The notes under the pieces: generated by a model
Told to the model about the DNA's origin: nothing
The model's input: only the letters and a program-made list of their open reading frames with translations
The model's database searches: none
In this document: positions 5,729 through 48,122 of the stretch, piece after piece
Layout: each line of letters begins with the position of its first letter
Position numbering within the stretch: position 1 is the stretch's first letter
Position numbers and translations under genes: made by a program
Origin: Pseudomonadota bacterium
GTDB taxonomy: Bacteria > Desulfobacterota > Desulfobulbia > Desulfobulbales > Desulfocapsaceae
NCBI GenBank assembly: GCA_018817385.1
Contig: JAHIUA010000050.1
Location: 1-64,000, forward strand
Reading direction: 5' to 3'
DNA: 64,000 nucleotides

Positions 5729-7864
5729 TTATAGCGTGGGGAACAGTGCCTGCATCTGGGCCTTCATTGTTGGGCTTAATTGCTTGAACAGTTGGGCATT
5801 ATACGATGCATTGTATGGGATACCGTATGTGGTCAAGTCAATATACTCGATAGTCGGATCGGTGAAGGTTGTTGGTGGTATTGCATCAGGATCAGGGGTG
5901 CCTTGTGGCCGACTCGGGTCAATACTTGGAAGTGGAATGCCTGGATCGCCGCTATTCGGTAGTATATCATAGTTTACACTATTCACGGTTAAATTCTGTT
6001 GAACTATCTGCTGCGTCGCAATCGCATATTTTCGTGATGTTGCTGCGGGCGAACCCTCGGCAACTGCAGGGTCAACGTTTACCGTCTCGATTGAAATGCT
6101 ATAGTCGCTGTTCAGGTAGATCTCGAATGTACGAAACTGCTGGGGAAAATCATGCAGTGATGAGGTCTCAACCTGCCAGAAGCCACTTTCTGGAGTTGTA
6201 TCGTGGAGGGTAGGCGATTTAAATGCCTTAACAGTGTTGAGATGACGATGCCCGGCAATCCACATCAGAAGGTTCGGTGTGGCCCAAAGTTTTTCCACAA
6301 GCCCCTCCAGGTCTACGGCATTCTGAGTCGTCGAAGACGGATCACCAAGAAGCTTGCTCGGGTCATCCTTTCTGCCACCAAGCCACCATTCAGTTTCGGC
6401 AGCAAGATTTACGACAGCGATCGGAATATGCGCAGCGATGATCATGAGTTGATTGGCAGCCTGACCGTCTTCAAGTTCCGCTTGCAGCCAGGCCCAGCGT
6501 GCTTCGTCAAGAAATCCGTGACCGTGAATATCAACAGAGCCGTCATCTTCGCGCTGGGTGTCATCCAGCACGATAACCTTAAGCGGTACATTTGACTTGG
6601 GCACAAAACTGTAACAGGCAAAACCAGCTTTGTCGTTTTCTGGAACCAGGCTAAAATTTGGGTTGGATGAAACCAGGTTGAAACCATGACCAACCGGATT
6701 GGTGGCTGTGTTGAAAAATTCCTGGATCCATTCCGTTCTCAAAAGCGAACGGCGATCAGGGTCAGCAGCAACCTTTGTTTGAGGAGTGGGGGGATCATCG
6801 ACAGACCCATAATTGATAATGGAACCGTAAGGGGTGGAACCATCAATGACACCCGCATAAAATCGTGGGGTACCGTTCTTCAGATTTTCGACGCTGAACA
6901 TAGCCGGGTAGGTCCATGTTTTAGTTTGGTCAATAGGGACGAGAAAATCCGGTACAGACCAGACAGTATCGCTGAGAAAGGAATCGGCAAGCCCGGTTTC
7001 ATAGGGAGGGAACGAACCAAGCAAAAAGTGGTCATGGTTGCCGATTGTCTGATAGAAAGGGATCGATTTGTCGAGTCCTGCTGCCTGGAATGGCTTTTGA
7101 TAATCAATGGTCTCAGCACCAAGATGGGCACCGGAACTTGGGGTGATGACCTTGCCGTCAATAATGTCGATATACCATCTGAGTTCGTTGTACGAAGAAC
7201 AGTTACAGGTGTCACCCAGAGAGATGAAGAAATCAAAGGGATTTTTCTTGTGCAGGGCATTTGCCGTCTGAATGGCAGCATCCAGAACATGGGTTGTGTA
7301 CAGCATGATCGGCGAATAGATGGAGGTATTGCCTCCGGAGAATTCTTGATCGTGTTGTTGGAGGTAGATGAACGAGTTTGGTGCCTCCTTGTCCGTGATA
7401 TGGATATCGGTCATGGCAAAAAAGTTCAGAAGTTTTGTCGCTTTTGTGACTGAAGTGGGATTATAGTCGGTCGGCATGATATCCGTCCGCTGTTTTATCG
7501 GGAGAGCCCAGTCTATATACTCCCATTCACCATAGCCTTTGCTGTCATATAATGGAACATTGAAAAGTTCAGTAATCCGGAGACCGTCACTGCCATTGGG
7601 GCTGAGAGCAGGGGTAGAAGCAGGATCATTGGGAGGAAGATCACCCAGAATATATGGAAATGAGATCATCCTCTCAGCCGTAGTCTTAACCGTGGAATGA
7701 ATCGGATACCTTTGTTTTGTGCGGCTCAGGAGAAAAAGAGAACCCTGATCCAGCGGGGCAAACGAGGCGAAAGACATATATGTGGTTGTGCCGGCGAAAT
7801 ATTTTACAAACTGCCGCCGTGTTAAGTTATTGCTCTTTTTTGTATCATTGTTGACGGTATTCAC
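5729..7864 (-). CDS. Tat-exported metallophosphoesterase (TIGR03768/RPA4764-like)
   Basis: A calcineurin-like phosphoesterase of 711 residues, probably periplasmic. The N-terminus has a twin-arginine signal (RRQFVKYFAG followed by a hydrophobic stretch, residues ~16-40). Metal-binding motifs appear in order: MTDIHITD (DxH), ISLGDTC (GD), TIGNHDH (GNHD), an AHIP segment and WIAGHRHLN (GHxH). The long inserts and Pro-rich C-terminus match the RPA4764-type family as I remember it. The substrate is unknown. The start is GTG at 7864, with AGGAGAG six bases upstream; an ATG two bases earlier runs straight into TGA. It is monocistronic and ends at a strong terminator. Confidence 0.88.
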   Translation of the reverse strand: MNTVNNDTKKSNNLTRRQFVKYFAGTTTYMSFASFAPLDQGSLFLLSRTKQRYPIHSTVKTTAERMISFPYILGDLPPNDPASTPALSPNGSDGLRITELFNVPLYDSKGYGEWEYIDWALPIKQRTDIMPTDYNPTSVTKATKLLNFFAMTDIHITDKEAPNSFIYLQQHDQEFSGGNTSIYSPIMLYTTHVLDAAIQTANALHKKNPFDFFISLGDTCNCSSYNELRWYIDIIDGKVITPSSGAHLGAETIDYQKPFQAAGLDKSIPFYQTIGNHDHFLLGSFPPYETGLADSFLSDTVWSVPDFLVPIDQTKTWTYPAMFSVENLKNGTPRFYAGVIDGSTPYGSIINYGSVDDPPTPQTKVAADPDRRSLLRTEWIQEFFNTATNPVGHGFNLVSSNPNFSLVPENDKAGFACYSFVPKSNVPLKVIVLDDTQREDDGSVDIHGHGFLDEARWAWLQAELEDGQAANQLMIIAAHIPIAVVNLAAETEWWLGGRKDDPSKLLGDPSSTTQNAVDLEGLVEKLWATPNLLMWIAGHRHLNTVKAFKSPTLHDTTPESGFWQVETSSLHDFPQQFRTFEIYLNSDYSISIETVNVDPAVAEGSPAATSRKYAIATQQIVQQNLTVNSVNYDILPNSGDPGIPLPSIDPSRPQGTPDPDAIPPTTFTDPTIEYIDLTTYGIPYNASYNAQLFKQLSPTMKAQMQALFPTL

Positions 7865-8099
7865 ATTACTCTCCTGAATTTTTGATTACTGAGTCGCATT
7901 ATTCCCATTTCTAAAGAAGTGATGCATGCCATATTGGGATGCTATGCTCAAAAAATTCAATTTGCAATTAAATATTATGAATCAGTGCTGTGAAGTTAAC
8001 CAGTAAAATAGTTCCGGGTTAGCTTCTCAGGGAAGTCCATCCTTTTTGAGGAACTGTAACGAAACAATCAGTACATTTCTGACCATTCGCGACGACGTT

Positions 8100-8573
8100 C
8101 AAGGATGATTCCGTGTCGCTTGTTCCTGGGATAAAAAGGCCATGTGGTGGGATGAAGAGGTCTTTGGCCTTGAATATGATCTGGATACCTTCATGATTGT
8201 GGCCGTGGATGATTTCAATATGGGGGCCATGGAAAACAAGGGACTTAATGTCTTTAATTCCAAATATGTCCTGGCCAGCCAGGAAACGGCAACGGATATG
8301 GATTATCTTGGCATAGAGGGGGGGATTGCCCACGAATACTTTCACAACTGGACCGGTAACCGGGTCACCTGCCGGGACTGGTTTCAGCTCAGCCTCAAAG
8401 GGGGGCTCACTAACCTTTCTCCGCAGCAGATGGGGCGCAGGAGTCTGGCCACCTGGAAAGGTTATGATTCCGGGCGCCAGGAGATGATGCAGGCGCAACT
8501 GCAACGCATTGCTGCCAAAGAGGGTCTTTCAGGAGATGTCTTTGTGATGGTGCGCAGGAGTCTGGCAGCGTGA
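8100..8573 (+). pseudogene. pepN (pseudo): Internally deleted pepN copy
   Basis: A near-identical copy of parts of the pepN at the window start. About 8186-8412 matches ~1-235 (GAMEN and HEXXH region), 8414-8446 matches ~1252-1284, and 8447-8573 matches ~1737-1863 including the stop. The catalytic third ligand is lost ([10 protein letters not shown] in place of SLKEGLTVF), as are some 500 internal codons, so it cannot be an active peptidase. A reading frame of 143 codons stays open across both junctions from an internal ATG (8142). Similarity continues about 80 bp past the stop. Confidence 0.93.
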
Positions 8574-8692
8574 GGGGAGAGATTGCCGTGTTCAGCCTTT
8601 TTTGAAAAAGGCCGACCCTTTTGTCTTACGGACAAACTCTATTTTGTTGCTATTCGCAAAACACACGACTCTATTGAGCGGGACAACTGTTG

Positions 8693-8911
8693 TTATTCAC
8701 AGAAGCATTCTTCTGGTCCTGCATCAGTTGTATTCCCGTGGCATCCGCAGCAGTCAAGTGTTCCCTCAGGAGTGATTAACTGTTTCGGTATATTGACATA
8801 ATCCGGTATTTCAATAAACTGATTTCTCGCCCAGTCGCTATGGCCGGTCGCAATTCCCAAATTGAATAGCAATAATCCACCACCGATGAATGCAGCAGTC
8901 GCCCGCTTCAT
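8693..8911 (-). CDS. Small exported Cys-rich protein
   Basis: A 72-residue protein, not recognised. It has an N-terminal signal peptide (MKRATAAFIGGGLLLFNLGIATGHS) and a Cys-rich tail, DCCGCHGNTTDAGPEECFCE, with five cysteines. CCGCH formally fits the CXXCH heme-attachment motif, but such clustering fits metal binding or disulfides equally well. Translation support is good: GGAGAGGAA directly precedes ATG at 8911. It stands alone, next to the pepN pseudogene. Confidence 0.7.
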   Translation of the reverse strand: MKRATAAFIGGGLLLFNLGIATGHSDWARNQFIEIPDYVNIPKQLITPEGTLDCCGCHGNTTDAGPEECFCE

Positions 8912-9218
8912 TTCCTCTCCTTTTTATGAACTAAAATTGATCCAAGCAGCATATCTATGCGCCAGTTATTTTAAAATAAACACGAAATTTTGGTATGTTA
9001 CCCTACACACAAAAGCAGGTAACGCAACGAAAAGAAACCAGTAAAGAAAATAAAAAATAACAAATATTCCTAATTGAGATGGTGAAAATAACAATATGGC
9101 AAATTGTCGCACCCGAAAAGTCAACTGAATCAAAATAGGCTATATTTCATATGGTTAGCTGTTTGTTTTGTGATATTTTATCTGCAGTAACGCCATATAT
9201 TATTTTTTCCATTCTTCT

Positions 9219-9491
9219 TTAGTTGTAAATCATTCCTAAAAAATGTTCTGAATGGCCAGGTTGTTTCTGGGCGGGAATCACGAGATAGCCGGTGATATAA
9301 ATAGCATTATCTTGAACGAGTCGAAAGAGGTGGTCCATGCTCTGGGTCCGGCTGTGTTTCAACTGGATGGAACCGGCAAAAGCTGTGTGATAGAAGGGGC
9401 AAGGGATAAATTTTTCAACAGAGTCTTTTAACTGTTCGTATTGTAGGGTAAAATAATGGAGTTTGATGAAAGAAGGCTGGGGTGATTGATG
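9219..9491 (-). pseudogene. Possible decayed gene fragment, unrecognised
   Basis: An open frame of about 90 codons with natural-looking protein composition (for example SIQLKHSRTQSMDHLFRL and AIYITGYLVIPAQKQ) ends at a stop at 9219. It is closed upstream by TGA without any start codon. Its 5' half overlaps Rep1 copy C, so the Rep1 sequence may itself derive from coding DNA. No family was recognised. Confidence 0.3.
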
Positions 9492-9631
9492 TCAGTCACA
9501 TGAGGCAGTGTTGATTGAACCCGCCGGAAGGAGTCAGGGAATTGGTCGCTCCTGAATGCAGTGGGGAACAGCTACTGAAAGCGGGTGTTGGCTTCCTGGT
9601 ACTTTGTTTGAGAAAGCAATTTTTTGTCACC
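9424..9631 (+). repeat. Rep1 copy C
   Basis: Begins TTTTAACTGTTCGTATTGTAG, as copy F does, and ends AAGCAATTTTTTGTCACC, matching the shared 3' end. It lies immediately upstream of the broken radical SAM gene. Confidence 0.55.
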
Positions 9632-9645
9632 ATTACCAATACGTC

Positions 9646-10496
9646 GTGGAGCATAAGGGCCTAAGCGAACTGCACTCCATCCAGATTGAGACCACCAGTC
9701 GCTGCAATCTGGATTGTGTCACGTGTCTGAAACCTGCATATGCCAACGGTTAGCAGGAACAAGATATGGACAGAGGACTTTTCAGCCTCATCCATTCTCA
9801 ACTTCCGGCCAAAGTATCCGTTCATTTGCAGGGGTGGGGAGAACCGCTCCTGCACCCTGACATATTCTTCCATATAAGACAACTGAAGTCCACAGGTGGT
9901 ATCGTCAGCTTTACCACTAACGGTACCATCATGGACAAAACGGTGGCTGACGCTCTTGTCGACTCAGGTCTTGATGGGCTTACTTTTTCCATGGCCGGAA
10001 ACAGTGACTCTACTCAGGACAGCCTCCGCGGTAGGGGCAGCTTCGCACTTCTGCACAGCGCAATCCGGACCTTTAACGCCGCCAAAAACTCCCGGGGGGG
10101 ACTTTTGCCACGCGTTGCTGTGAGCTATCTGCTCACCCCGAAAACAGGAGGCGAACTGGCGAACGCTGTTTCCTGGTGTTGCAAAAACGGAGTTGATGCC
10201 TTTGCCAGGAGGTGACCTGGTATCATAAGAACCTTACTATCCGGCAGAAACCACTGAGCTTTGGAAATGTGCACAACAGGAGGTTGGCGGACATCTGGGA
10301 GCATCGGAAATATCGTCAATTTCGTGATACGTTTAGGAAACGAAAGGATTACCATGACCGCAAGCTTAGCGGAATCGGCTCTTCGTTTGAGGGCATGGCC
10401 AAGCTGGATGCAGCGGTAGAGGCGATCAGGCAGTATTGGTCGACCCATCCACCGCCGTCTACATGTAGGGCTTGCGCTAAACTCGATGGCTTTTGA
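9646..10496 (+). pseudogene. Radical SAM protein, broken by a nonsense codon and a deletion
   Basis: A remnant of a radical SAM enzyme. The [4Fe-4S] motif CNLDCVTC is intact near the start, followed by an in-frame TAG at 9751. The same frame resumes with LQGWGEPLLHPD and FTTNGT, typical of the SAM-binding core, and runs to a stop at 10213. A different frame (10212-10496) carries a C-terminal piece with FGNVHNRRLADIWEHRKY, which is typical of SPASM-type radical SAM C-termini; the segment between, with auxiliary-cluster cysteines, seems deleted. A likely GTG start at 9646 follows the end of Rep1 copy C. It is convergent with an ABC transporter operon. Confidence 0.85.
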
Positions 10497-10681
10497 TGTC
10501 CGCAATTGATTTTTTAAGCTCTGCCCCTTTTTTTGTTGTGGAGAAGATTGGTGAGGCAAAGCGGGCGACTGGCTGCTCCGGTGCCGCCGCAGACGGAAGA
10601 CCCATGGAACCAATGGCCTGTAGTCGGAGATGTGTTACTGGTAAACGTTCTCCTCGAGGCTTTTTTCCCCATCATTCCCTC

Positions 10682-26756: not shown

Positions 26757-27596
26757 TCATTTTCCCATCTTGGCATCTACTGCTGTTATTATTTTTTTCA
26801 GGTTATCATAATCGCTGGTCTGGACTTCAGTGAATCCGGTGATGCTCTTTTTGATAGATTGATAGACAGTGGCATCCTTGAGATTGATCAAAGCTGACTG
26901 GATTTTCTTGTAAGTTGCGTCATCAACGCCTGGTCCTACCACAATTACATGTTCATAAACCGGCTCTGATTCGGCAACGATCTTCAGTCCTTTATCCAGA
27001 TATTTTTTGGCTATAGATGGTTTAAGACCACCAGCAGCGGTTTTGTCCCTGAGGACGGCCACGGCTACGTTGTCATGTTTGCCATAAAATTCAAAGGTTA
27101 CTGAATCAAAGATGCCGCTCTTCATCAGCATGTAGGCTGGCATATAACAGGAAAGGGTGGACTCGCGGTCACCCAAAGCAAACTTCTTGTTTTTGATATC
27201 TTCTAATGTGTTGATTGGGCCATCTTTTTTAGCAACTATCACTCCTTTAAATGTTGGGTTCCCATTATTGAGAATAGCAGCACAAATTCTTGTTTTGCCA
27301 GGATGCTCCATGTCAAGAACGGCAAATGGTGCCGGTCCCAGATAGGAAATATCAATCTTCCCTGAACTGAGGTCATCCATGGTCGTACGATAATCAGCCG
27401 AACTATGAAACTCTATTTTGGCATCCAGTTCCCCTTCAAGGAAGGTAATCAGGGGTGAAAACATTTTTTTCAGTTCGCTTGGATTTTTGATGGGCGGGAC
27501 ACCGAGTACATAGGTTTTTTGGGCCAATGCATTTGCGGGTACGCATAACAAGGCAAACAGGCATAATAAAAATCTAATTGCGGTAAGTTTTTTCAT
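26757..27596 (-). CDS. PhnD-like phosphate/phosphonate-type binding protein, solitary
   Basis: A 279-residue periplasmic binding protein of the PhnD/PtxB family. The signal peptide (FLLCLFALLCVPANALA) is followed by YVLGVPPIKNPSELKKMFSP. DISYLGPAPFAVLD is the classic PhnD-family segment, and FALGDRESTLSCYMPAYML the ligand-loop region. GGAGGGG precedes ATG 27596. No permease or ATPase is nearby. The next gene on the strand is a chemoreceptor, so a sensing role is possible; transport with unlinked partners is the alternative. Confidence 0.85.
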   Translation of the reverse strand: MKKLTAIRFLLCLFALLCVPANALAQKTYVLGVPPIKNPSELKKMFSPLITFLEGELDAKIEFHSSADYRTTMDDLSSGKIDISYLGPAPFAVLDMEHPGKTRICAAILNNGNPTFKGVIVAKKDGPINTLEDIKNKKFALGDRESTLSCYMPAYMLMKSGIFDSVTFEFYGKHDNVAVAVLRDKTAAGGLKPSIAKKYLDKGLKIVAESEPVYEHVIVVGPGVDDATYKKIQSALINLKDATVYQSIKKSITGFTEVQTSDYDNLKKIITAVDAKMGK

Positions 27597-27646
27597 TTCC
27601 CCTCCATAAGGTTTTCTTTCCTATATAATAACAATTCCTTACTAGT

Positions 27647-27676
27647 ATTATACGGCAGAGTATCGTCTTATGTCAA
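27647..27676 (-). promoter_or_regulatory. Consensus sigma-70 promoter of the PhnD-like gene
   Basis: On the minus strand: TTGACA (27676-27671), 18-bp spacer, TATAAT (27652-27647). Both hexamers match the consensus exactly. It lies 51 bp upstream of the start codon. Confidence 0.85.
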
Positions 27677-28748
27677 AAAAAAACATCTTAAAGGAGACAA
27701 TAGAGGAGGGCCAGCAAGGATCTCTCACGTCCCTCCTGACATGTTGATGATGTTGTATTCTTCTGGGAATATTAACTGGATGCATTCCCAGAGTGCCTGG
27801 CCCCGAGACTGACGAGCTCACTCTATTGCCGATAACATTAAGAGGGCACAGGCCCTCATTGTTTTGGTAGCCAATAGAATGGAAGAGAATTATGGCGTTC
27901 TTTGCCTTAGGATGTTTTCGCCTTGTCATGCCTGGCAACCCCCTGTATCTGATTTTGGAGAAAATCAGCGTCAATTCCGTTTTTCGAGCAACCTGGATTG
28001 TTCTCTCTCTTGACTGGAGGCAGAAGTATAGTCGTGACACAGGCCGTTCCATCCATACCTGGGAGTAATGACCAATCCCCTGTCTACCTTCTTCTGATTC
28101 CGGCACATAGGGATGGTGCTGGAAGTCTCATCCAACCTGTGGGGGAACGGTATGTCCAGTCTCTTGATCTAAGTACAACCTCAACACCCTCACCGATGAC
28201 GAGAGAAGAAACCCCATCACCGGTACCCCGTCTAATCGGACTTTTATGTGCCGCATAACCAGAGGGAAAAGCTTTTCTGGCCTCTGATATGCTCCCAAAG
28301 AAAATTCTGAAAGAGTATTTTACCTACTGGTAAAGGTATCTGAACGGATTGATCGGGAGACAGCTGTCCTCTCTCGGGGCGGAATTCAGCTGCACAATGT
28401 CCCTGGCCATCGAGGACTTCATGCAGCGGGTCGGTCATGGAGCTTGGTCATTATCAAATTTCCTGCCGATTAATATGCTCACTTCCCATGGTCTGAATGT
28501 GGACGACGATCTGGGTGATGTATAACAGACCCTTAGACAGGAGAGTAGCAGACCTCTGCTCATGTTAGTCGGGTGAGATACCTCCTGCTGAATACGATCA
28601 ACTCTTCCTTTCGCTTAACACCAGCAGGCGGTACTGATACTTCTCCCTGCTGCGTTCTTTAACAGACAGGTTTAATCCGTATCGGCCTGACACTGTTGCC
28701 AACGCATCAACCTCTTTTTCATCCTCCTCTCTTACCACATTTTTTTCG
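27677..28748. other. Gene-free region of about 1.07 kb
   Basis: Separates the divergent PhnD-like gene and sulfur operon. The open frames here look like noise and have no ribosome-binding sites. Both flanks carry the promoters described separately. Confidence 0.5.
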
Positions 28749-28779
28749 TTGCACATCGCAAATTCATTGCATTTTGCAA
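28749..28779 (+). promoter_or_regulatory. Tandem TTGC-N5-GCAA palindromes, putative activator sites
   Basis: TTGCACATCGCAA (28749-28761) and TTGCATTTTGCAA (28767-28779) share the form TTGC-N5-GCAA, with centres 18 bp apart. They sit about 70-100 bp upstream of a sigma-54-type promoter, the normal position for an NtrC-type activator. I infer they bind the response regulator encoded at 31730-33073. Confidence 0.6.
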
Positions 28780-28835
28780 TGTAGCGTAGAAAGTATCAAT
28801 TTAGTAAATTACTGTTATTGTTGGGTAAGGTGAGG

Positions 28836-28851
28836 TGGTATGGTTGTTGCT
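28836..28851 (+). promoter_or_regulatory. Sigma-54-type (-24/-12) promoter of the sulfur operon
   Basis: TGGTATGGTTGTTGCT has the invariant GG and GC separated by exactly ten bases (consensus TGGCAC-N5-TTGCW). It lies 76 bp upstream of the yedE-like start codon. Confidence 0.65.
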
Positions 28852-28926
28852 TAGGCCAACTCCGAGGAATAACACGTGGCCAGCTAATAAGATTATGTAC
28901 CATCAACACATTACAGGGGAGAGAAT

Positions 28927-30174
28927 ATGAGTGACAATGTGTTCGCAGCGAAAGCCAAGGGGCTTTACCAGATTCTTTGCCAGGACAATTGGGGGAAAAA
29001 TACTGTTGCCATCCTGGTTGCCCTCCTGAGCATCCTGATGCTGGTTTGGGATCGTCCCTGGGGAGCAGTCGGTGCGGTGAGAAACTGGGGTGAATGGATT
29101 ATCTACGGAACAGGACTCTGGGATCTCCTTGGATTTGCCGATGTCTACGACAGTGATACTCCCAAGGCTTTTTTGACCCATTCCGGCTCGGTGATCGGCA
29201 TCGGCTTTATTGGCGGCGCCTTTCTTTCCGCCTGTCTTGGCGGTAACTTTGCCATTCGTATTCCGCCAAAACTTGAAATGGTCAAGGCGGTCTTTGCTGG
29301 TCTCTTCATGGGGGCTGGTGCAACTCTGGCTGGTGGTTGTAATGTCGGCGGTTTCTATAACGCTATTGGTAATCTTTCAGCCCATGGCTTTGCCATGATG
29401 GTCGGGCTGATCATTGGTGCTATCATCGGTTTGAAATATGTCTACTGGGAGATGGAAAATATCAGCTGGGGAGTGAGTGGTGGCAAGACCATTGATCTCC
29501 CCGTGGCCTTACAAATTATCTTCGGTATCGCTGCCCTGGTAGCGCTTCTTGCCGGTGCCTATAGCTATAGCAACGGTGACATTGAAAAACTGGGCGGCAT
29601 TCTGCTGATCACTGCCCTGTTGGGGTATGCCTTCCAACGTGGCCGTTGGTGTATGATTCAGGGATTTCGCGAACCGCACATGACCGGCAACGCCAAAATG
29701 GCAAAGTCGGTGGCATTGAGCATCGCGATTCTGGCCGTCGGTATTGCCATTGTCAAAAGTAAGTATGTTGGCCTGAGTGACATGAATGGGAATAGCATGG
29801 ACTATTTCTGGCAACACTATGTGCGCGGCACTTTCGGCTGGGGTGGTGTGGTCGGGGGAATCCTCTTTGCCTTTGGTGCAATCCAGGCCGGTGGTTGTGG
29901 AACAGGTACCCTCTGGCGGGTTGGTGAAGGTCAAATCAAGTTGTGGATCGTCACCCCCTTTTTCGGCCTGAGTTGTGCCGTTGGCAGCATGCTGTCCCGT
30001 AAATATAATTGGGAAGGTTCCATTGATGAAGGCAGTAGTCTCGGATCCTACGTGTATCTACCCCACTCACTCGGATATGGCGGCACCTTGGCCCTGATCT
30101 TTCTGGTCATGGGAGCCTGGTATCTCATTGTCGCCTGGAATGAAGAAACCAATAAATTAATGCTGGAGATGTAA
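28927..30174 (+). CDS. YedE/YeeE-family sulfur-compound transporter (YTD cluster)
   Basis: A 415-residue polytopic inner-membrane protein of the YeeE/YedE (TsuA) family, whose studied members take up thiosulfate. Family cysteine motifs are present: GATLAGGCNVGGFYNAIGNL (residues ~137-156), GRWCMIQGFREPH (~240) and AIQAGGCGTGTLWRVGEGQ (~320). CAGGGGAGAG precedes the ATG. It is the first gene of an operon followed by tusA, a dsrE-like gene and two small genes. This gene order is described for sulfur-disproportionating bacteria as the YTD cluster. The protein may move a sulfur species or a persulfide-transfer intermediate. Confidence 0.93.
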   Translation: MSDNVFAAKAKGLYQILCQDNWGKNTVAILVALLSILMLVWDRPWGAVGAVRNWGEWIIYGTGLWDLLGFADVYDSDTPKAFLTHSGSVIGIGFIGGAFLSACLGGNFAIRIPPKLEMVKAVFAGLFMGAGATLAGGCNVGGFYNAIGNLSAHGFAMMVGLIIGAIIGLKYVYWEMENISWGVSGGKTIDLPVALQIIFGIAALVALLAGAYSYSNGDIEKLGGILLITALLGYAFQRGRWCMIQGFREPHMTGNAKMAKSVALSIAILAVGIAIVKSKYVGLSDMNGNSMDYFWQHYVRGTFGWGGVVGGILFAFGAIQAGGCGTGTLWRVGEGQIKLWIVTPFFGLSCAVGSMLSRKYNWEGSIDEGSSLGSYVYLPHSLGYGGTLALIFLVMGAWYLIVAWNEETNKLMLEM

Positions 30175-30262
30175 TACGGCTCTATGGAGAGGCTAGCTTT
30201 CACCGTTAACCTGTTTTAGAGACAGCCCATTATGGGCATAACCCAAAAGGAAAGGAGATACA

Positions 30263-30505
30263 ATGGATCTTAACAGCATCAAACCCGATCAGACCCTGGA
30301 CGCCAAAGGACTCAGCTGCCCAATGCCTCTTTTACGTACCAAGAAGGCTATCAACGGCATCAATTCCGGGCAAATTCTGGAAGTACTGGGCACCGACCCC
30401 GGTTCAAAAAATGACTTGCCCAGCTGGTGTGAGCGTTCCGGGCACACCTGTCTGGGCAACGTGGACGACGTCGGCTTTTTTCGTATCTTTATCAAAAAGG
30501 GATAA
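30263..30505 (+). CDS. tusA: TusA-family sulfur carrier protein
   Basis: An 80-residue cytoplasmic sulfur-transfer protein. DAKGLSCPMPLLRTKKAI carries the CPxP motif, with Cys19 as the persulfide-bearing residue. GQILEVLGTDPGSKNDLPSW is the second conserved block. AAGGAG sits six bases before ATG. In the YTD arrangement TusA would accept sulfur linked to the YedE-like protein and pass it to DsrE-type partners. An attenuator-like hairpin follows. Confidence 0.95.
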   Translation: MDLNSIKPDQTLDAKGLSCPMPLLRTKKAINGINSGQILEVLGTDPGSKNDLPSWCERSGHTCLGNVDDVGFFRIFIKKG

Positions 30506-30528
30506 GGTAAGCACGCTAAAGAGATAAC

Positions 30529-30567
30529 AGGTATGCCGCTGCCCACCAAGTTACGGCGTGCCTTTTT
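30529..30567 (+). terminator. Attenuator-like hairpin between tusA and the dsrE-like gene
   Basis: AGGTATGCC (30529-30537) pairs with GGCGTGCCT (30555-30563) through nine pairs, two of them G-U, and is followed by a run of five T. It may set the ratio of upstream to downstream products. Confidence 0.55.
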
Positions 30568-30581
30568 CATGAGGTATCAAT

Positions 30582-30896
30582 ATGTCCAAAAATCTCGGTA
30601 TATTTGTCACAAATCCTGACAGCATGCACCATGTCATGGGGATTACAAAGGCTGCCAAAGATAAGGGTTCCAAGGTTAAAGTCTTCTTTACCTGGAAGGG
30701 AACCCTCCTCTCAAAAGACCCACAGTTTCCTGCCCTATGTGAATTGGCCGATGATGTTTCAATTTGCGCCGACAGCTACAAGAAAATGGGCTATGAGGTT
30801 TCCGATATCCCTGTCGGGTTGACCAATGACAAAATGGCCACCCAGGCTCAGCATGGCGCCATCATTGAAGATTATGATTACTATTTGACCCTCTAG
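30582..30896 (+). CDS. DsrE-like sulfurtransferase-family protein
   Basis: A 104-residue DsrE/DsrF-fold protein. LGIFVTNPDSMHHVMGITKA is the first strand-helix, and KVKVFFTWKGTLL the second strand of the fold. Cysteines at CELADDVSICADSYKKMGYE are candidates for persulfide chemistry; the ADSYKKMGYE stretch is typical of YTD and peroxiredoxin-like DsrE proteins. GAGG lies about eight bases before ATG. It works with TusA in cytoplasmic sulfur relay by family knowledge; the exact reaction is not known. Confidence 0.88.
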   Translation: MSKNLGIFVTNPDSMHHVMGITKAAKDKGSKVKVFFTWKGTLLSKDPQFPALCELADDVSICADSYKKMGYEVSDIPVGLTNDKMATQAQHGAIIEDYDYYLTL

Positions 30897-30906
30897 GAGA
30901 GAAATC

Positions 30907-31203
30907 ATGTCCAAAAAAGTATGCTTTATCTATCAGAATGAGGACTACGTCCTGGACGGTATGCGTAGCGCTCTCGGTCTGGCGGTAGAAAATATGTATG
31001 CCTTTGCAGCTGTTGCCACCGAAATTGCTGAGCTTGACGAGCATAACAAGGAGAACCTGGAGTGGATTCGTGACATGGAAGGAGAGGTTTTCAGCAACGT
31101 GCAGGCCAACTGTGACAAAAATGACATGACCCCGATCACCCTTGAGGAACTCGGCAAGCATATCCGGGAAATGGATATCGTTGTTCCCTACGGAACGTAC
31201 TAA
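30907..31203 (+). CDS. Small conserved protein of the YTD cluster (DsrE-like fold possible)
   Basis: A 98-residue cytoplasmic protein, not firmly recognised. It opens SKKVCFIYQNEDYVLDGMRS, resembling the first strand and helix of DsrE/DsrF-type proteins. It has a second Cys at VQANCDKNDMTP and acidic helices. It starts 11 bp after the dsrE-like stop behind CTAGGAGAG, so it is in the same operon. It corresponds by position to one of the two hypothetical proteins of the YTD arrangement. Confidence 0.85.
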   Translation: MSKKVCFIYQNEDYVLDGMRSALGLAVENMYAFAAVATEIAELDEHNKENLEWIRDMEGEVFSNVQANCDKNDMTPITLEELGKHIREMDIVVPYGTY

Positions 31204-31214
31204 GGAGAAACAGT

Positions 31215-31388
31215 ATGAAAATTCTGCATATTTACAGAAATGAACCCAACGCCGACTGCAAAAAGCTGGTGGAAGTTGTTGCCGAAGGAAATGACAATGA
31301 TCACGTTAAGCTGTTTGAAGGCACCCCAGACTACAACAAGGTGGTCGATATGATATTTGCAGCGGATAAGACTATCAGCTGGTGGTAG
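31215..31388 (+). CDS. Very small (57 aa) last gene of the YTD operon, TusB/DsrH-like
   Basis: ATG at 31215 with TAAGGAG eight bases upstream, beginning 12 bp after the previous stop. The product opens MKILHIYRNEPNADCKKLVE, has one Cys at position 15 and ends ADKTISWW. The opening strand-helix and terminal aromatic pair are reminiscent of DsrH/TusB, though it is little more than half their length. A strong terminator follows 37 bp later, supporting it as the real end of the operon. It is easily missed because of its size. Confidence 0.8.
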   Translation: MKILHIYRNEPNADCKKLVEVVAEGNDNDHVKLFEGTPDYNKVVDMIFAADKTISWW

Positions 31389-31424
31389 TCAGGCACCACG
31401 TATCAAGTACCCCGAGAGAGTGTT

Positions 31425-31458
31425 CAAAGGGCCCCTTCACACGGGGTCCTTTGCATTT
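31425..31458 (+). terminator. Rho-independent terminator of the YTD operon
   Basis: CAAAGGGCCCC (31425-31435) pairs with GGGGTCCTTTG (31443-31453) with one G-U pair, followed by CATTTTT. Confidence 0.88.
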
Positions 31459-31477
31459 TTGCTGTCTTCTTATCGGG

Positions 31478-31510
31478 GAAGTTCCAAGGAGAATGTCTCC
31501 TTGGAACTTC
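31478..31510. repeat. Perfect 15-bp stem hairpin after the YTD operon
   Basis: GAAGTTCCAAGGAGA, three-base loop ATG, TCTCCTTGGAACTTC. A second hairpin, CCCAACCA (31521-31528) with TGGTTGGG (31542-31549), follows at once. No T-run follows either. Confidence 0.8.
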
Positions 31511-31729
31511 TGGTCGTATGCCCAACCATTGCATTGTGCACTGGTTGGGTTGTTGTCAGACGAGCAACAAACGGTATCGGCAATAAAGAGCTTTTTTTTA
31601 ACACTGTCGGGGCTACTTCAGGCGAGGGGAAGTATTGCAGACGAAAGCTTCTTCGGTAACAATGAGGCAAGAGCAGCATCCATTCAGCAGGCAGCAGTTC
31701 TCCTGGAGGAACAAATGAAAAGGCCGTTG

Positions 31730-33073
31730 TCAGAGACCGTAGCGTTTGATCTTACGCCAGAGGGTGGACGTGTCAATTCCTAACATCCTGGCCGCTCTGG
31801 CCTTATTGCCAGCACTCCTCTGCAATGCCTTGCGCATCATGGTCTGTTCCATATCACTCAACTTCATTGAATCTTCAACTGCTGTTACCAAATTTCCCCT
31901 CCGAAAATCGTCGGGAAGACTGGCCGAAGTAATGGCTGTCCCTGTGGTCATGATCACGGAACTGGAGATAACATTTTCCAGTTCACGAATATTGCCAGGC
32001 CAAGGATGATCAACCAGCTGATTCAAGGTGTATGGATCAATCCTGTCCACTTTTTTCTCATATAAGGAACTGTACTTACGCAGAAAATAACAGGCAAGTT
32101 CTGGGATGTCTTCCGGTCGTTCACGCAAGGGAGGTAAGCGAAGCACCATAACGCTCAGTCGAAAATAGAGATCATCACGAAAACGGCCGGCGGCCACCTC
32201 TTCGGCCAGATTAACATTGGTTGCAGCAACAATCCGAACGTCACTACGCAGCTCTTTTCCTCCTCCCACTCTGAAAAAAGATCTGTCCTGTAAAAAACGT
32301 AATATTTTGGCCTGAAAAGCTGCGGGCATACTGTTTAATTCATCGAGGAAGAGAGTCCCGGCGCTGGCCAGCTCAACCAAACCTTTTTTTTGTTGGTCAG
32401 CACCGGTAAACGCCCCCTGTTCATGGCCAAACAGCTCAGACTCAAGGAGATTTACGGCAATTGCGCCACAGTTAATCGGCAAAAAAAGATTCCCCGCCCG
32501 GCGACTGTTGCGATGGACCAAACGTGCAACCAACTCTTTCCCGGTCCCAGTCTCTCCCTGGATCATGACACTCACGTCCAGTGGGGCAATTTTTGCCACA
32601 AGTCTTTTGACCTTCTGCATGGCAGAGCCACCACCGATCAACTCATGACTTCGTAAGTCATTCAAGGTGGAATTCATCATTCGATTTTTCCTGATCAACT
32701 GGTAATAGCGCAGGGCACGATTGGCGACTAATTTCAATTGTTCAGGGTCGAAAGGTTTTTCAATATAATCATAGGCTCCCTGCTTCATGGCCTCAATAGC
32801 CGAGTTCACCGAACCATGGCCAGTGATCATAATGATCGGCAACTCGGCATCCACCGCTTTGGCCTGCCTGACGATCGCCATTCCGTCCTGTTTTGGCATT
32901 TTCAGGTCCGTCACAATCAGGGAGAATTTATTTTCAAGAATGGCCCTGATGGCGGTATCGCCATCAGAGGCAGCAATGACTTGATGGCCCTGGTCACTGA
33001 AAATTTCAACCAACAGTTCACGCATCCGGTCATCATCATCTACGACCAGAATAGGAAAGTTCTTAGACACCAA
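31730..33073 (-). CDS. NtrC-family sigma-54-dependent response regulator
   Basis: A 447-residue transcription activator. The receiver domain opens ILVVDDDDRMRELLVEI, with phospho-acceptor Asp in IVTDLKMPKQDG. The AAA+ domain has Walker A GETGTGKE, the sigma-54 contact loop ELFGHEQGAFTGA and Walker B GTLFLDELNSMP. The C-terminal Fis-type helix-turn-helix ends ARMLGIDTSTLWRKIKRYG. The start is TTG 33073 or GTG 33070, behind AAGGGG. The cognate kinase gene lies directly upstream with a Rep2 element between. It is convergent with the YTD operon, which carries a sigma-54 promoter, so that operon is the natural target. Confidence 0.94.
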   Translation of the reverse strand: MVSKNFPILVVDDDDRMRELLVEIFSDQGHQVIAASDGDTAIRAILENKFSLIVTDLKMPKQDGMAIVRQAKAVDAELPIIMITGHGSVNSAIEAMKQGAYDYIEKPFDPEQLKLVANRALRYYQLIRKNRMMNSTLNDLRSHELIGGGSAMQKVKRLVAKIAPLDVSVMIQGETGTGKELVARLVHRNSRRAGNLFLPINCGAIAVNLLESELFGHEQGAFTGADQQKKGLVELASAGTLFLDELNSMPAAFQAKILRFLQDRSFFRVGGGKELRSDVRIVAATNVNLAEEVAAGRFRDDLYFRLSVMVLRLPPLRERPEDIPELACYFLRKYSSLYEKKVDRIDPYTLNQLVDHPWPGNIRELENVISSSVIMTTGTAITSASLPDDFRRGNLVTAVEDSMKLSDMEQTMMRKALQRSAGNKARAARMLGIDTSTLWRKIKRYGL

Positions 33074-33197: not shown

Positions 33198-34937
33198 TTA
33201 TCCAGCTGGCCACTCAGCAGGATCATTCTCGCCCCCATAGCATGGCAATGAAATCATAAAACCAGCACCACTCCCTGTATGTATCAGCTCCAGGAGGCCA
33301 TCTAACTCATCAATAATGCCGGCACAAATCGCCAAGCCCAATCCGGTTCCTTCCCCAACAGGTTTGGTTGTCACAAAGGGATCAAAAATTCGGCAACGCA
33401 ACTCCTCAGGAACACCGGGACCGTTATCCTGTACCAGCAAATGAGCCATTTCCTTGTCTTGCCATGTACGGAGATGCACCTCTCCGCCAACATCAATTGC
33501 CTGAATAGCATTCAAAACCAGATTCAAAATCAGTTGCTCGGCCTTGCGACTGTCGGCTAATACCATAGAGGGCTGCTGTGAAAGATCCAGTGTAAGAACG
33601 GCATCTTTTTGCTTCAATTGCAACTGCAGAACCTTTACAACCGCCAATACGGACTCATTCAGGTCAATCTCAGTAAGTTTCGAAATCGAGGCACGGGAAT
33701 AATCCAGCAATCCTTTAACTATTTCTGAGCATTTCCTGGCCTGTTCGACGATCACGCTCACACGCTGATGATTTTTTTCTACATCATCACTCTGTGGTAT
33801 CATGGAAGCATATCCGATAATGTTGCCTAATGGGGTGTTGATCTCATGGGCAACACCAGCGGCAAGTTGTCCCAGGGCAGCGAGTTTCTCAGTTCGGCAA
33901 TAAAATTCGTGACGTTTTTTCTCATCACTGATGTCACGGAACGTTTGAACCCCGCCAATACTCTTGCCGGTACTATCCAGTAATACTGCAGAGCCGACAG
34001 AAACGTCCAGGAGTCTCCCGTCCTGGGTTTTCAAGGTGGTTTCCACATGGATATCTGTGTTTGGGACATTATTGAGGGCACGGGCATCAGCAGACACTGT
34101 AAACTGGAATATCTCTCCACACGGTCTGCCAACTGCTTCTTTTTCGGAGTAGCCGGTTATGCGTGCTGCGGATTCATTAAAGGAGACAATCACTCCATCA
34201 TTATCTGTGACAAAAAGACCTTCCGTCATACAGGCGACCACAGCAGCCAATTTTTGCCGCTCCAGTTCAAGATGCTGGCGGCTCTCTTTCAGCTGAGAAA
34301 AGCTGTCAGCCAATCTCGCTGCCATGACATTAAAAGACTCGCCTATTGAATTGCACTCCTGGGGACCTGTTAATTCGATCTTCTTGGTCAGATTTCCTTC
34401 GGAAATTTCATGAATAGCCTGCTGGAGTACGTTCAACGGCTGATAAATCGTGTTATTCAACACCACATTGATCAATGCGAGGCCGACAACATGCAACACC
34501 GCAACCACTGCTCCGGCACAATAAACAATTTTCCAGGTAATTGAATCTATCCAGGCCGTTGAAAAAGCAAGCTGGACTGTGCCATAAGAGGCATGATCAC
34601 GACGAATTGGGTGTTCAACGAAGAGGAGATGAGAATCCGGAGGCATCGGCTGGCCTGCCAATACTGCACCGTCATCAGCAAAGACGGCGATACTCGATAC
34701 AAAACCAGCCTGGACGATATCTTTGATATAACGTTCCATCGCTGTATAATCCTGGGAAGGAATGGCCTCAAGGGTGGCACTGGACAAGGCCTGAACGATA
34801 TTTGCTCCTCTGTGTTCAAGATCTCGAACAAGGACCATTCGTTCAACCCGAATGACAATGACACTGGCAACCACAACCGAGAACAGTAAAATCAAGCTGA
34901 ATCGTTTGTAAAAACAGTACCGTAGTGGTTTGTTCAT
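33198..34937 (-). CDS. Membrane sensor histidine kinase (HAMP-PAS-HisKA-HATPase)
   Basis: A 579-residue kinase. Transmembrane helices lie at about residues 12-30 and 155-178, flanking a periplasmic sensor domain of ~120 residues. A HAMP region follows (~180-235), then PAS (GLFVTDNDGVIVSFNESAAR, ~245-355). The HisKA motif LAAGVAHEINTPLGNIIGYA contains the phospho-His, and the ATPase domain has NAIQAID, DNGPGVP and GTGLGLAI. It is the first gene of the two-gene unit with the NtrC-type regulator. I infer it senses an envelope or sulfur signal; the sequence does not reveal the ligand. Confidence 0.94.
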   Translation of the reverse strand: MNKPLRYCFYKRFSLILLFSVVVASVIVIRVERMVLVRDLEHRGANIVQALSSATLEAIPSQDYTAMERYIKDIVQAGFVSSIAVFADDGAVLAGQPMPPDSHLLFVEHPIRRDHASYGTVQLAFSTAWIDSITWKIVYCAGAVVAVLHVVGLALINVVLNNTIYQPLNVLQQAIHEISEGNLTKKIELTGPQECNSIGESFNVMAARLADSFSQLKESRQHLELERQKLAAVVACMTEGLFVTDNDGVIVSFNESAARITGYSEKEAVGRPCGEIFQFTVSADARALNNVPNTDIHVETTLKTQDGRLLDVSVGSAVLLDSTGKSIGGVQTFRDISDEKKRHEFYCRTEKLAALGQLAAGVAHEINTPLGNIIGYASMIPQSDDVEKNHQRVSVIVEQARKCSEIVKGLLDYSRASISKLTEIDLNESVLAVVKVLQLQLKQKDAVLTLDLSQQPSMVLADSRKAEQLILNLVLNAIQAIDVGGEVHLRTWQDKEMAHLLVQDNGPGVPEELRCRIFDPFVTTKPVGEGTGLGLAICAGIIDELDGLLELIHTGSGAGFMISLPCYGGENDPAEWPAG

Positions 34938-36287: not shown

Positions 36288-37802
36288 ATGAAAAGAAATT
36301 ACGGCCAACGTTTTGTTATCTGTCTCGCAGTTGGATCTTTGCTAGGCGGTGCAGCAGACCAACTTTTTGCTGCGAGCCCCAGTCAAGACCACTTTTTCCC
36401 CGGTCAGGTTGTCCTGGCAGGAAATGCCCAGGAAATGCCCGCCGGATATCAGGTCAGCAAATATTACCCCCTCGCTGATTTGACTGTCGTCAGGGTCAGC
36501 CGCGGCAAAGAAAGGGAACATGTCAAGTCGTTACGTTCCCAAGGACGGAGAGCGGGTCTGAATATGCGCTATGAAGCTTTTGAGGTGTCAGTTGATGATA
36601 CCTACTATGGTCGACAATGGAATTTTCCCATGGTCCAGAGTGGAGCGGCCTGGGAGTTGGCAACCGGTGAGAATGTATCCGTGGCAGTTCTCGATACAGG
36701 GCTAAGAAGAGAAGGTTCCAGTGATGGGATTTCCTGCGTTGATATCAGATCCGGGAGCAACATCATTAATAACACTGATGATCCTCTTGATGGTAATGGG
36801 CATGGCACCCATGTTTCCGGGACAATAGCTCAACGTACCGATAATAGTACCGGTGTTGCCGGACTGGCCCATGATGCCTGTATCATGCCGGTGAAAGTTC
36901 TAGGGGATGATGGTGGCGGTTCTACAGCAACCATCGCTGAGGGTCTTTATTTTGCAGTTGAGAAGGGAGCCAAGGTCATCAATATGAGTCTTGGCTTGAA
37001 GGCGAAGTTTACAATCACGTCTGATCCCTTCGTGGATCCAGCTTTAGAGTATGCATATGCTAACGGGGTGACGGTTGTCTGCGCTTCAGGGAATGACAGC
37101 TGGCAAGAGAATGTATCGTATCCTGCAATATATCCAACAACAATTGCCGTAGGTGCTGTGGGTGCAGATGAATCAATAGCATCCTATTCAAATGGTGGCA
37201 TTGGTCTTGATCTTGTTGCTCCAGGAGGAGGAGACGAAGATAGTGGTATCTTACAGGAAACCTTTTCCCAAGTCTCAGGCTGGGGGTATTACGGCTACAA
37301 GGGGACATCCATGGCAACGCCACATGTCGTTTCAGTTGCGGCTTTGCTCTATGCCCAGGATGACACTGTCACGCCGGATATGGTGCGGACAGCCCTTACC
37401 GGTTCGGCCAAGGATCTCGGGCCAGTGGGATATGACAGGACTTATGGCAGCGGTCTTGTCCAGGCCTATGCTGCCCTGAATTATTCCGGTTCCTGTGACA
37501 CTGATAGTGATGGAGATGGCTGGTCATTATGCGACAATGATTGCAATGACAACGATGCCGGTATCAATCCTGGAAGCAGTGAAACCTGCGCTGATGCTAT
37601 TGATAATGATTGTGACGGCGTCATTGATGAGGATTGTCTTGCTGTCTGTGAGGAAAAGGACCTTGACGGAGACGGTTGGTCTCAATGTGAAGGTGACTGC
37701 GACAATCACAACGTTCTTATTTACCCGGGCCACCCTGACAACAGCAGAGGACGATGGGCTGATGGCTTAGACAATGATTGTGATGGCAAGGTAGACAACT
37801 GA
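36288..37802 (+). CDS. Secreted subtilisin-like (S8) serine protease with MopE-like Asp/Cys-rich tail
   Basis: A 504-residue extracytoplasmic protease. The signal peptide (residues 1-29, ending QLFAAS) is followed by a short propeptide-like region. The catalytic triad is visible: Asp136 in VAVLDTGL, His172 in GNGHGTHVSGT, and Ser in YKGTSMATPHVVS; the oxyanion Asn is in VVCASGNDSW. After residue ~400 come two calcium/copper-type repeats of the form DxDGDGWSxCxxDC...PGxxE...DNDCDGxID, as in MopE/thrombospondin-type tails, with paired cysteines. No C-terminal anchor is evident, so it is secreted or held by the tail. ATG follows AAAGGAG. Confidence 0.93.
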   Translation: MKRNYGQRFVICLAVGSLLGGAADQLFAASPSQDHFFPGQVVLAGNAQEMPAGYQVSKYYPLADLTVVRVSRGKEREHVKSLRSQGRRAGLNMRYEAFEVSVDDTYYGRQWNFPMVQSGAAWELATGENVSVAVLDTGLRREGSSDGISCVDIRSGSNIINNTDDPLDGNGHGTHVSGTIAQRTDNSTGVAGLAHDACIMPVKVLGDDGGGSTATIAEGLYFAVEKGAKVINMSLGLKAKFTITSDPFVDPALEYAYANGVTVVCASGNDSWQENVSYPAIYPTTIAVGAVGADESIASYSNGGIGLDLVAPGGGDEDSGILQETFSQVSGWGYYGYKGTSMATPHVVSVAALLYAQDDTVTPDMVRTALTGSAKDLGPVGYDRTYGSGLVQAYAALNYSGSCDTDSDGDGWSLCDNDCNDNDAGINPGSSETCADAIDNDCDGVIDEDCLAVCEEKDLDGDGWSQCEGDCDNHNVLIYPGHPDNSRGRWADGLDNDCDGKVDN

Positions 37803-47150: not shown

Positions 47151-48003
47151 CTTTTTTTCCTACGCTATTTTATTATACCAGTTGCTGGTTGATCATTTCG
47201 AGGGAGATTATACGGTCTGGTTCAGCTGGAGCCTTGCTCTTTTCAGACTTATCGCAAGTGCTGTGATCTGAAGGAGAAGGACGGTCGCTTCTCAGTGGGT
47301 GTCTGCTGCCCTGATTCCCCTTATGGGTTTTTATTTCTCTTACTCCTGTACGTCCTGTACGGGACTGAGGGCAGGTTGCTTCACTGCGAGTATGACTATT
47401 GAAACATTTACTGATAACGTCAGATGGCCTTCGCTAATCGTGTCGAACTGTTCAGGGGCAAGGAGTTTGCTCAGCTCAAAAAAAAAGAGTGATAAACGAT
47501 GCTCATGTCCACTCATGTCCATGGAATTACGTTGTATTTAGTGGATATGGGTGAATGGTTTTGTTCGAAGTTGCAGGGATGGGAAGACCGTTTTGATTCC
47601 TCTGCTATAGTATCTCATTTAGGGCTTGTTTTCCATAGCAAAAGGTAGGGGCAAGAGCTGAACTGGCCAAAATGGGTGCTCCTGTCTCTCTAACCTAATG
47701 TAAAAAATGACTTTTGTATTTTAAGGGGAGATGTTTTTGTTGTTGCCACCCTCCCCATATTTTTGAAAGGGCTTCAAACTTGTTCCTTATCACCTCTGCT
47801 ATAGGAAAAGCCCACTCTGAGTTGTTTGTCGCCCATTGACAGAGAGATGGGGAACCCGGTAAGAGCTGTGACTGTTGAGTCGGGTGGGTCGGAAAGGATG
47901 TCAGTCTGTCTTTTATGAAGGCAGGGGCTCCGGTCGTGCAAAAATAATAATTCAAAGAGTTCTTTACTTTCCAACTGGGCTTGAATATATCTGTTAATTA
48001 ATT
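47151..48003. other. Gene-free region of about 850 bp
   Basis: No credible gene. It ends at the TPP riboswitch of the thi operon. Confidence 0.45.
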
Positions 48004-48098
48004 GAGCTGGGGGTGTCCGTAAGCGTTTTCCGGACTGAGACGGATTGAGAAATCCAACCCTTTGAACCTGACGCAGTTTGTACTGCCGTAGGGAAGCT
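48004..48098 (+). promoter_or_regulatory. TPP riboswitch (THI element)
   Basis: Shows the invariant segments: GGGGGTGTCC at the 5' side, ACTGAGAC at 48034-48041, ACCCTTTGAACCTGA at 48057-48071 and a GTAGGGAAGC closing segment. AGCT at both ends closes P1. It binds thiamine pyrophosphate and controls thiGH through the terminator just downstream. Confidence 0.93.
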
Positions 48099-48122
48099 GT
48101 GAAATGGATGTTTTTCAATTTC

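Follow-up and report, generated by a model that had tools for sequence, protein, structure and literature searches.

The 64,000-nucleotide stretch analysed here (the window; positions 1 to 64,000 of contig JAHIUA010000050.1, forward strand, of the Desulfocapsaceae assembly GCA_018817385.1) contains five genes that form, with near certainty, a complete YTD cluster, i.e. yedE-tusA-dsrE followed by two small genes, or yedE-tusA-dsrEFH type II. We propose that the locus is an extra, collinear copy of this sulfur-relay operon, which is placed under a two-component switch and feeds the dissimilatory sulfite reductase (DSR) pathway. We assign this reading a probability of about 0.7. The YTD cluster itself has already been described, and its last three genes are reported to form the sulfurtransferase DsrEFH type II (DsrEFH-II; PMC13293266, PMC13047784, both 2026).

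An initial annotation, made from the letters of the sequence, had placed five plus-strand genes at 28927-31388, and all five open reading frames are found at these coordinates (Table 1). Shine-Dalgarno-like purine runs can be read before each of the five starts. The terminator assigned to the operon end corresponds to a terminator-like stem-loop located slightly beyond 31388. A scan of 28500-31800 detects seven terminator-like sites, compared with 3.2 expected, and this one has the longest stem. The product of the third gene, DsrE, scores 16.2 bits with the Pfam DsrE model (E 0.012), under the cut-off of 22.7. When the whole genome was searched with the same model, three other genes were matched while the DsrE of the operon was missed, indicating that this profile overlooks the DsrE-II gene. 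The 98-residue protein has no Pfam match, and the 57-residue protein has only a sub-threshold, unrelated one.

For comparison we annotated 130 loci including the window. Nine of them are without one of tusA, dsrE, dsrF or dsrH and 15 are repeats, which leaves 106 distinct sets. Not all are from separate genomes, as the window's own genome (G000), G002, G023 and G004 contribute two copies each; in one collection, the best 80 of 199 confirmed relatives were taken. The order tusA-dsrE-dsrF-dsrH recurs in all 106 sets, with yedE at most 3 kb away in 85 of them, which excludes a chance assembly. The Sulf_transp match of YedE and its cysteines confirm the predicted transporter with Cys motifs: Cys138, Cys242 and Cys324 are each kept in 88/88 sequences and Cys18 in 87/88. 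The assignment of a CPxP TusA holds equally well, with the Pfam TusA match and the motif cysteine Cys19 present in every set. DsrE Cys62 is likewise found in 106/106 sets and is the sole DsrE cysteine kept in all. Counterparts of the 98- and 57-residue proteins occur throughout YTD clusters, first in a count of 50 sets (for DsrH, 48) that preceded the addition of the named loci, and then in the wider set. By position and published work, the two proteins are DsrF-II and DsrH-II. Their description as hypothetical proteins of no assigned kind was dropped.

The AlphaFold2 model of DsrF-II (predicted local distance difference test score, pLDDT, 91.3) supports a DsrE/F fold for the middle subunit. 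Its eight best solved structures have Z scores of 7.7-10.7, and the next row is an unrelated reductase at Z 7.0. Six of the eight are titled DsrE/DsrF-like, dsrE, DsrEFH, TusBCD or YchN, and the remaining two are conserved or hypothetical proteins without an assigned function. The model matches chain A of DsrEFH (2HY5) with Z 8.8 and TusBCD with Z 7.7. The same three proteins have been modelled as a DsrEFH-like double heterotrimer (PMC13047784). Two results weigh against the assignment at the level of structure. A Foldseek search with the DsrF model gave no match with E <0.001, the best being a dsrE at 2.3e-3. For DsrH-II (model pLDDT 94.5), the best PDB match reaches Z 5.4, to unrelated chains, and no DsrH chain is among the fold-search matches listed. 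Against PDB sequences, the DsrH profile gave three chance-level matches only, and the DsrE profile none with an E of 1 or less.

The operon shares with DsrEFH type I of Allochromatium vinosum and with E. coli TusBCD the DsrE/F fold of the DsrF model, one conserved DsrE cysteine and an adjacent tusA. There are also differences. No sequence-level match to the DsrE, DsrF or DsrH families is found apart from the sub-threshold Pfam DsrE match, DsrH has 57 residues while E. coli TusB has 95, and unlike the type I genes the operon is not located beside dsrAB. The likeness to the YTD or DsrEFH type II systems described in PMC13293266, PMC13047784 and PMC12998232 is closer. It comprises the same five genes, the tusA-dsrE-dsrF-dsrH order, the conserved cysteines of YedE, TusA and DsrE, and a genome with reductive dsrAB-dsrD and dsrC.

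The role in sulfane-sulfur import and transfer that was suggested initially fits the published biochemistry, and the accompanying remark that this biochemistry is not established is outdated. Purified DsrEFH-II of the cable bacterium E. aureum exchanges sulfur in vitro with TusA via one DsrE cysteine and hands sulfur on to DsrC (PMC13293266). The window's DsrE Cys62 would be the counterpart of E. aureum Cys67; a point that weakens the proposed relay is that the two are equated through Cys62 being the only universal cysteine rather than by direct alignment. The initial annotation also recommended a check of the rest of the genome for dsrAB and aprAB. In the genome, a DsrD gene follows dsrA and dsrB, on a contig other than that of the operon; two DsrC-family genes and aprA are also present. 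The DsrD gene after dsrAB indicates that dsrAB is of the reductive type. At C15, a molybdoenzyme gene lies together with a gene for an Fe-S protein and one that is TorD-like, in a MOLY-like locus. A sigma-54-family regulator gene lies close to these MOLY-like genes (L192, G000:C15, 6287-12336).

The cluster could also be a dedicated sulfur-disproportionation module that marks its host as a disproportionator, a reading we regard as doubtful. YTD is said to be present in all elemental sulfur (S0) disproportionators of Desulfobacterota and Nitrospirota, the phyla having the cluster, and YTD and MOLY are still ranked as the best candidates (PMC12998232). All five YTD proteins are more abundant in Desulfolithobacter during thiosulfate disproportionation (PMC9751629). 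The genus of the window includes a metagenome-assembled genome titled Desulfocapsa sp.: in the same-genus genome G012, the DsrEFH sequences are identical to those of a contig titled Desulfocapsa sp. isolate MC-05. G023, from another genus of the family, matches a contig titled Desulfocapsa sp. isolate N3_15. However, a DsrE-II match at E <=1e-8 is found in 204/257 genomes of the order, and most of the same-genus genomes examined have DsrE-II without the window-type operon. The source of the above ranking also describes YTD in some strains with evidence against any disproportionation and holds that it is insufficient as a marker by itself (PMC12998232). In PMC13293266, DsrEFH-II is counted in 25/63 cultured disproportionators, a general role in sulfur oxidation is argued, and the disproportionation hypothesis for the cluster is called poorly supported.

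The value of YTD as a marker of disproportionation, which the initial annotation had put forward, is therefore weak, as the DsrE-II match is widespread and the papers call the cluster non-restricted. The same annotation named as a counterargument that the five-gene set might be common in organisms that cannot disproportionate. This largely applies to DsrE-II, which is matched in 132/148 good-quality genomes; the 257-genome search used DsrE and the regulator only, so that the count is of DsrE matches rather than of five-gene sets, taken over the order regardless of physiology. The host itself may disproportionate sulfur. The cluster alone is no proof of this, while the Desulfocapsa link, dsrAB-dsrD, dsrC, aprA and the MOLY-like locus speak in its favor.

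A second full set is present in the same genome (L042, at G000:C82), near genes reading as dnaN and gyrB. Here, yedE is divergent from tusA-dsrE-dsrF-dsrH, and the products are 47% (DsrE) and 54% (YedE) identical to those of the window. Two further genomes have the same combination: G002, of the same genus, and G023 each contain one window-type set and one divergent set. Their window-type DsrE is 94% and 92% identical, respectively, to that of the window. Two DsrE-II matches occur in 6/257 genomes of the order, including G080 and G209, but one that is >79% identical to the window's DsrE only in G000, G002 and G023. The L042 set (7720-10506) itself appears, from the trees, to be of mixed origin. 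Its YedE groups with the standard YedE of the genus and its TusA-DsrEFH is a different, long-branch lineage, so that it looks as if the tusA-dsrEFH module was replaced in place beside an old yedE.

The layout also sets the window set apart. In 80/106 sets yedE is encoded on the opposite strand, no more than 3 kb away, and the same-strand arrangement is found in 5/106, namely the window, G002, G023, G044 and G040, the last being very divergent. yedE is further away in 6/106 sets and was not found in the available stretch in 15/106. A YedE tree of 88 rows places the window, G002 and G023 (hereafter the trio) together with G044 in one supported clade. In the tree of TusA-DsrEFH, the trio is one clade (SH-like approximate likelihood ratio test, SH-aLRT, 100), apart from the standard copies of its genus. 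Approximately unbiased (AU) tests, from which the divergent L053 was left out, rejected a topology in which the trio is held with three same-genus standard copies (p-AU 5e-5) and did not reject one that unites it with G044 (p-AU 0.42). The window set is probably an extra copy that was acquired horizontally into the family, transfer being the simplest reading. Some points speak against it: the group for the AU test was picked with the tree already known, the operon equals the window in G+C content (0.494, compared with 0.487) and thus shows no compositional sign of recent transfer, and the extra copy may instead originate from an old duplication.

Two cysteine positions follow this grouping. 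TusA-Cys63 and DsrH-Cys15 are each present in 3/106 sets, which are the same three sets, those of the trio. DsrH-Cys55 is kept in 93/106 sets and is Ser in the other 13; of the trio, G023 retains it, while the window and G002 lack it. The joint presence of TusA-Cys63 and DsrH-Cys15 only in the trio, with DsrH-Cys55 missing in two of the three, might tentatively be read as altered cysteine wiring, in which the putatively switched copy uses another sulfur donor or an additional step of transfer. DsrH Cys20 is essential in vivo in A. vinosum (PMC3397948), and cable-bacterial DsrH-like proteins lacking Cys20 are described in PMC13047784. An exact equivalence of DsrH-Cys15 to A. vinosum DsrH-Cys20 was considered and dropped, since the register would put the two about one helical turn apart and no DsrH chain was among the fold-search matches listed. 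Judged from the aligned proteins, DsrH-Cys15 is a clade-specific residue, and we claim nothing beyond that.

The region upstream of the window's yedE contains a tandem pair of dyads and a TGG-N9-TTGC-like putative sigma-54 promoter (28836-28851). The distance between the dyads is 18 bp and that from the start of the proximal dyad to the promoter is 69 bp in all three operons. The core of the proximal dyad is retained in G002 and matches at 9/10 positions in G023. In the three-way alignment of the trio, identical positions amount to 28/40 in the tandem-dyad block, 11/16 in the promoter and 17/22 in the region of the ribosome-binding site and start. Elsewhere they number 31/116 (upstream), 14/51 (spacer) and 17/53 (leader). 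The difference between the dyad block and these three regions combined (62/220) is significant (Fisher p 7e-7).

We scanned upstream regions of at least 150 bp, which were available for 91 yedE and 106 tusA genes, using a sigma-54 consensus that had not been derived from the trio. A score of at least 10/12 is reached in 5/91 yedE regions, three of which belong to the trio, and in 1/106 tusA regions. The dyad is found in the trio only among the yedE regions and in none of the tusA regions. Collinear yedE, sigma-54-like site, tandem dyads and kinase-regulator genes are combined in 3/106 sets, each from a genome with a second, divergent set. In the 5.38-Mb genome, the proximal palindrome has one exact pattern match. 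Thirty genome positions lie within two mismatches of it, 27 of them at two mismatches. The two at one mismatch, on C80 and at 31527-31543, do not resemble further targets; near the former there is one GG-N10-GC match, 235 bp off and without other likeness to the consensus. The latter is a copy of the enhancer-like palindrome located between dsrH and the 3' end of the regulator gene. The 1.3 kb upstream of yedE (27597-28926) is without a convincing gene, and an Rfam scan of it gave no family at gathering score.

Downstream of the operon, on the minus strand, lie genes for an NtrC-family response regulator and a sensor histidine kinase. Among the 257 genomes of the order, regulator matches of at least 90% are found, besides the own genome, only in G002 and G023, beside the operon in each. 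The next match is at 63%, in G075. Kinase orthologues adjoin the operon in G002 and G023 too. Around the 106 sets, a regulator-like gene (alignment >300 residues, identity >33%) is present in four stretches of varying length, with 91-100% in the trio and 43% in L162. Receiver-AAA+-Fis architecture, an adjacent kinase, palindromic upstream sites and a putative -24/-12 site are shared with NtrC/sigma-54 two-component control as in the Desulfovibrio vulgaris sigma-54 regulome (PMC4641369). What differs is the proposed target, a sulfur-relay operon. Among the matches listed from the open PMC literature, none reports that a YTD cluster is controlled by sigma-54 or a two-component system, with supplements, subscription papers and preprints outside this search. 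A term search of the main texts of PMC13293266, PMC12998232 and PMC13047784 gave no statement on such control either.

Compared with the usual YTD cluster, the window set thus differs in its collinear rather than divergent yedE, in being one of two sets in its genome, and in having the sigma-54-like promoter, the tandem dyads and the linked kinase-regulator pair. It also adds TusA-Cys63 and DsrH-Cys15, and has Ser at DsrH position 55, as do 12 other sets.

It is possible to regard the sigma-54-like site, the dyads and the kinase-regulator pair as coincidental, with the pair regulating other genes and the operon being read from an ordinary promoter. We consider this unlikely. The 64-kb window has six sites with a sigma-54 score of at least 10 with GG/GC fixed, and the site at 28836-28851, which is one of them, would mean little without its conserved position. 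Sigma-70-like sites in 28500-31800 number 8, compared with 4.3 expected. The search pattern was written after the site had been seen and has 4 matches with at most one mismatch in the window, against 2.3 expected. The dyad motif, unlike the sigma-54 consensus, was derived from the trio itself, which makes its absence from other sets a partly circular result. The comparison rests on three operons, the switch being seen in only three genomes from two genera of one family, and the kinase-regulator pair might act on other genes. Coincidence is nevertheless hard to reconcile with the exact spacing in all three operons, whose spacer is otherwise poorly conserved, and with close regulator matches that occur only beside the operon.

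A pair homologous to the kinase and regulator (55% and 63%) is located in G075 (L182, G075:C188, 468-5738). A PhnD-like binding-protein gene overlaps the kinase gene there and a rhodanese-domain gene is nearby; together these genes are possibly a module that senses sulfur oxyanions. A gene for a PhnD-like periplasmic binding protein, about 32% identical to that of G075, also lies near the operon in the window (26757-27596, minus strand). Its inclusion as a fixed part of the operon was dropped, as no match is found in the stretches around the operon in G002 and G023.

It is very improbable that the genes encode a YeeE-YeeD-like (TsuA-TsuB) importer of thiosulfate for sulfur assimilation: YedE belongs to the same superfamily and YeeE with the TusA-like YeeD takes up and decomposes thiosulfate in other bacteria (PMC11073785, PMC13047784), but the NCBIfam TsuA match of YedE (E 1.5e-21) is far under the cut-off (76.9 vs 645 bits) and its best NCBIfam model is YedE/FdhT (also under its cut-off), the TusA model gives the carrier 59.6 bits (under the cut-off of 78) and the YeeD model 19.1 (TsuB cut-off 147.5), reductive dsrAB is present in 73.9% of DsrEFH-II genomes, and thiosulfate did not persulfidate cable-bacterial TusA, DsrEFH-II or DsrC in the experiments described (both PMC13293266).

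For the switched sulfur-relay operon, we infer the following working from the genes and sites. The kinase would sense a cue and phosphorylate the neighbouring regulator. The regulator would then bind the tandem dyads, which precede the start codon of yedE by about 150-180 bp, and activate sigma-54 RNA polymerase at the putative promoter. YedE is predicted to import sulfane sulfur, either polysulfide or thiosulfate-derived, across the membrane. TusA Cys19 would take the sulfur and pass it to DsrE Cys62 in the DsrEFH-II complex, from which it would be transferred to DsrC. The resulting DsrC persulfide may be oxidised by the reductive-type DsrAB operating in reverse and then by AprAB. With this direction of flux, the relay would serve sulfur oxidation; in a cell that is disproportionating, this would include the oxidative half of the process.

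Table 1. Positions in the window of the YTD operon, its putative control sites and the linked regulatory genes.
Feature	Position	Strand	Basis or remark
Distal dyad TTGCACATCGCAA, putative enhancer, first of tandem pair	28749..28761	+	9/10 dyad positions; placed and spaced alike in G002, G023
Proximal dyad CATTGCA-TTT-TGCAATG, perfect 17-bp palindrome, putative enhancer	28765..28781 (core 28767-28779)	+	
Putative sigma-54-type -24/-12 site TGGTATGGTTGTTGCT	28836..28851	+	10/12 vs consensus; same relative place in G002, G023
yedE, YeeE/YedE-family sulfur transporter, 415 residues	28927..30174	+	Pfam PF04143 (Sulf_transp), E 7e-42
tusA, CPxP sulfur carrier, 80 residues	30263..30505	+	Pfam PF01206 (TusA), E 1.6e-25; clade-specific Cys63
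dsrE type II, 104 residues, putative active Cys62	30582..30896	+	Pfam PF02635, sub-threshold
dsrF type II (Chp1), 98 residues	30907..31203	+	AlphaFold2 model, fold matches
dsrH type II (Chp2), 57 residues, clade-specific Cys15	31215..31388	+	Position and family conservation
Intrinsic terminator-like hairpin	31425..31453	+	11 pairs, T-rich tail
NtrC-family response regulator: receiver, sigma-54 AAA+, Fis-type helix-turn-helix	31730..33073	-	Pfam
Sensor histidine kinase: N-terminal part without Pfam match, HAMP, PAS, HisKA, HATPase	33198..34937	-	Pfam

Several other features of the window were observed. Past a gene-poor stretch after the kinase, a subtilase with MopE-like metal-binding repeats is encoded at 36288-37802 (plus strand). 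A thiamine pyrophosphate (TPP) riboswitch (Rfam RF00059, 70.9 bits) is located at 47999-48111 (plus strand), upstream of genes reading like thiazole synthesis. The same peptide stretch, which reads like a fragment of aminopeptidase N, is encoded twice, at 11-1864 and 8142-8573, which suggests a partial duplication or an assembly artefact.

Papers of 2026 openly disagree on whether YTD and DsrEFH-II serve sulfur oxidation, disproportionation or both. The signal that induces the promoter would tell when the cell needs the relay, and a genome with two sets, of which one appears to have an inducible promoter controlled by a sensor, offers a direct handle on this question. As a tentative extension, some Desulfocapsa-type bacteria might have two differently wired DsrEFH-II relays per cell: the common copy, and a transferred copy switched on by a dedicated sigma-54 two-component system that responds to a sulfur cue outside the cell. 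If this is true, the cell would regulate which way the DSR pathway runs, towards sulfate reduction or towards sulfur oxidation. The presence in one genome of sets that differ in lineage, layout and probably control cautions against the use of YTD as a yes/no marker.

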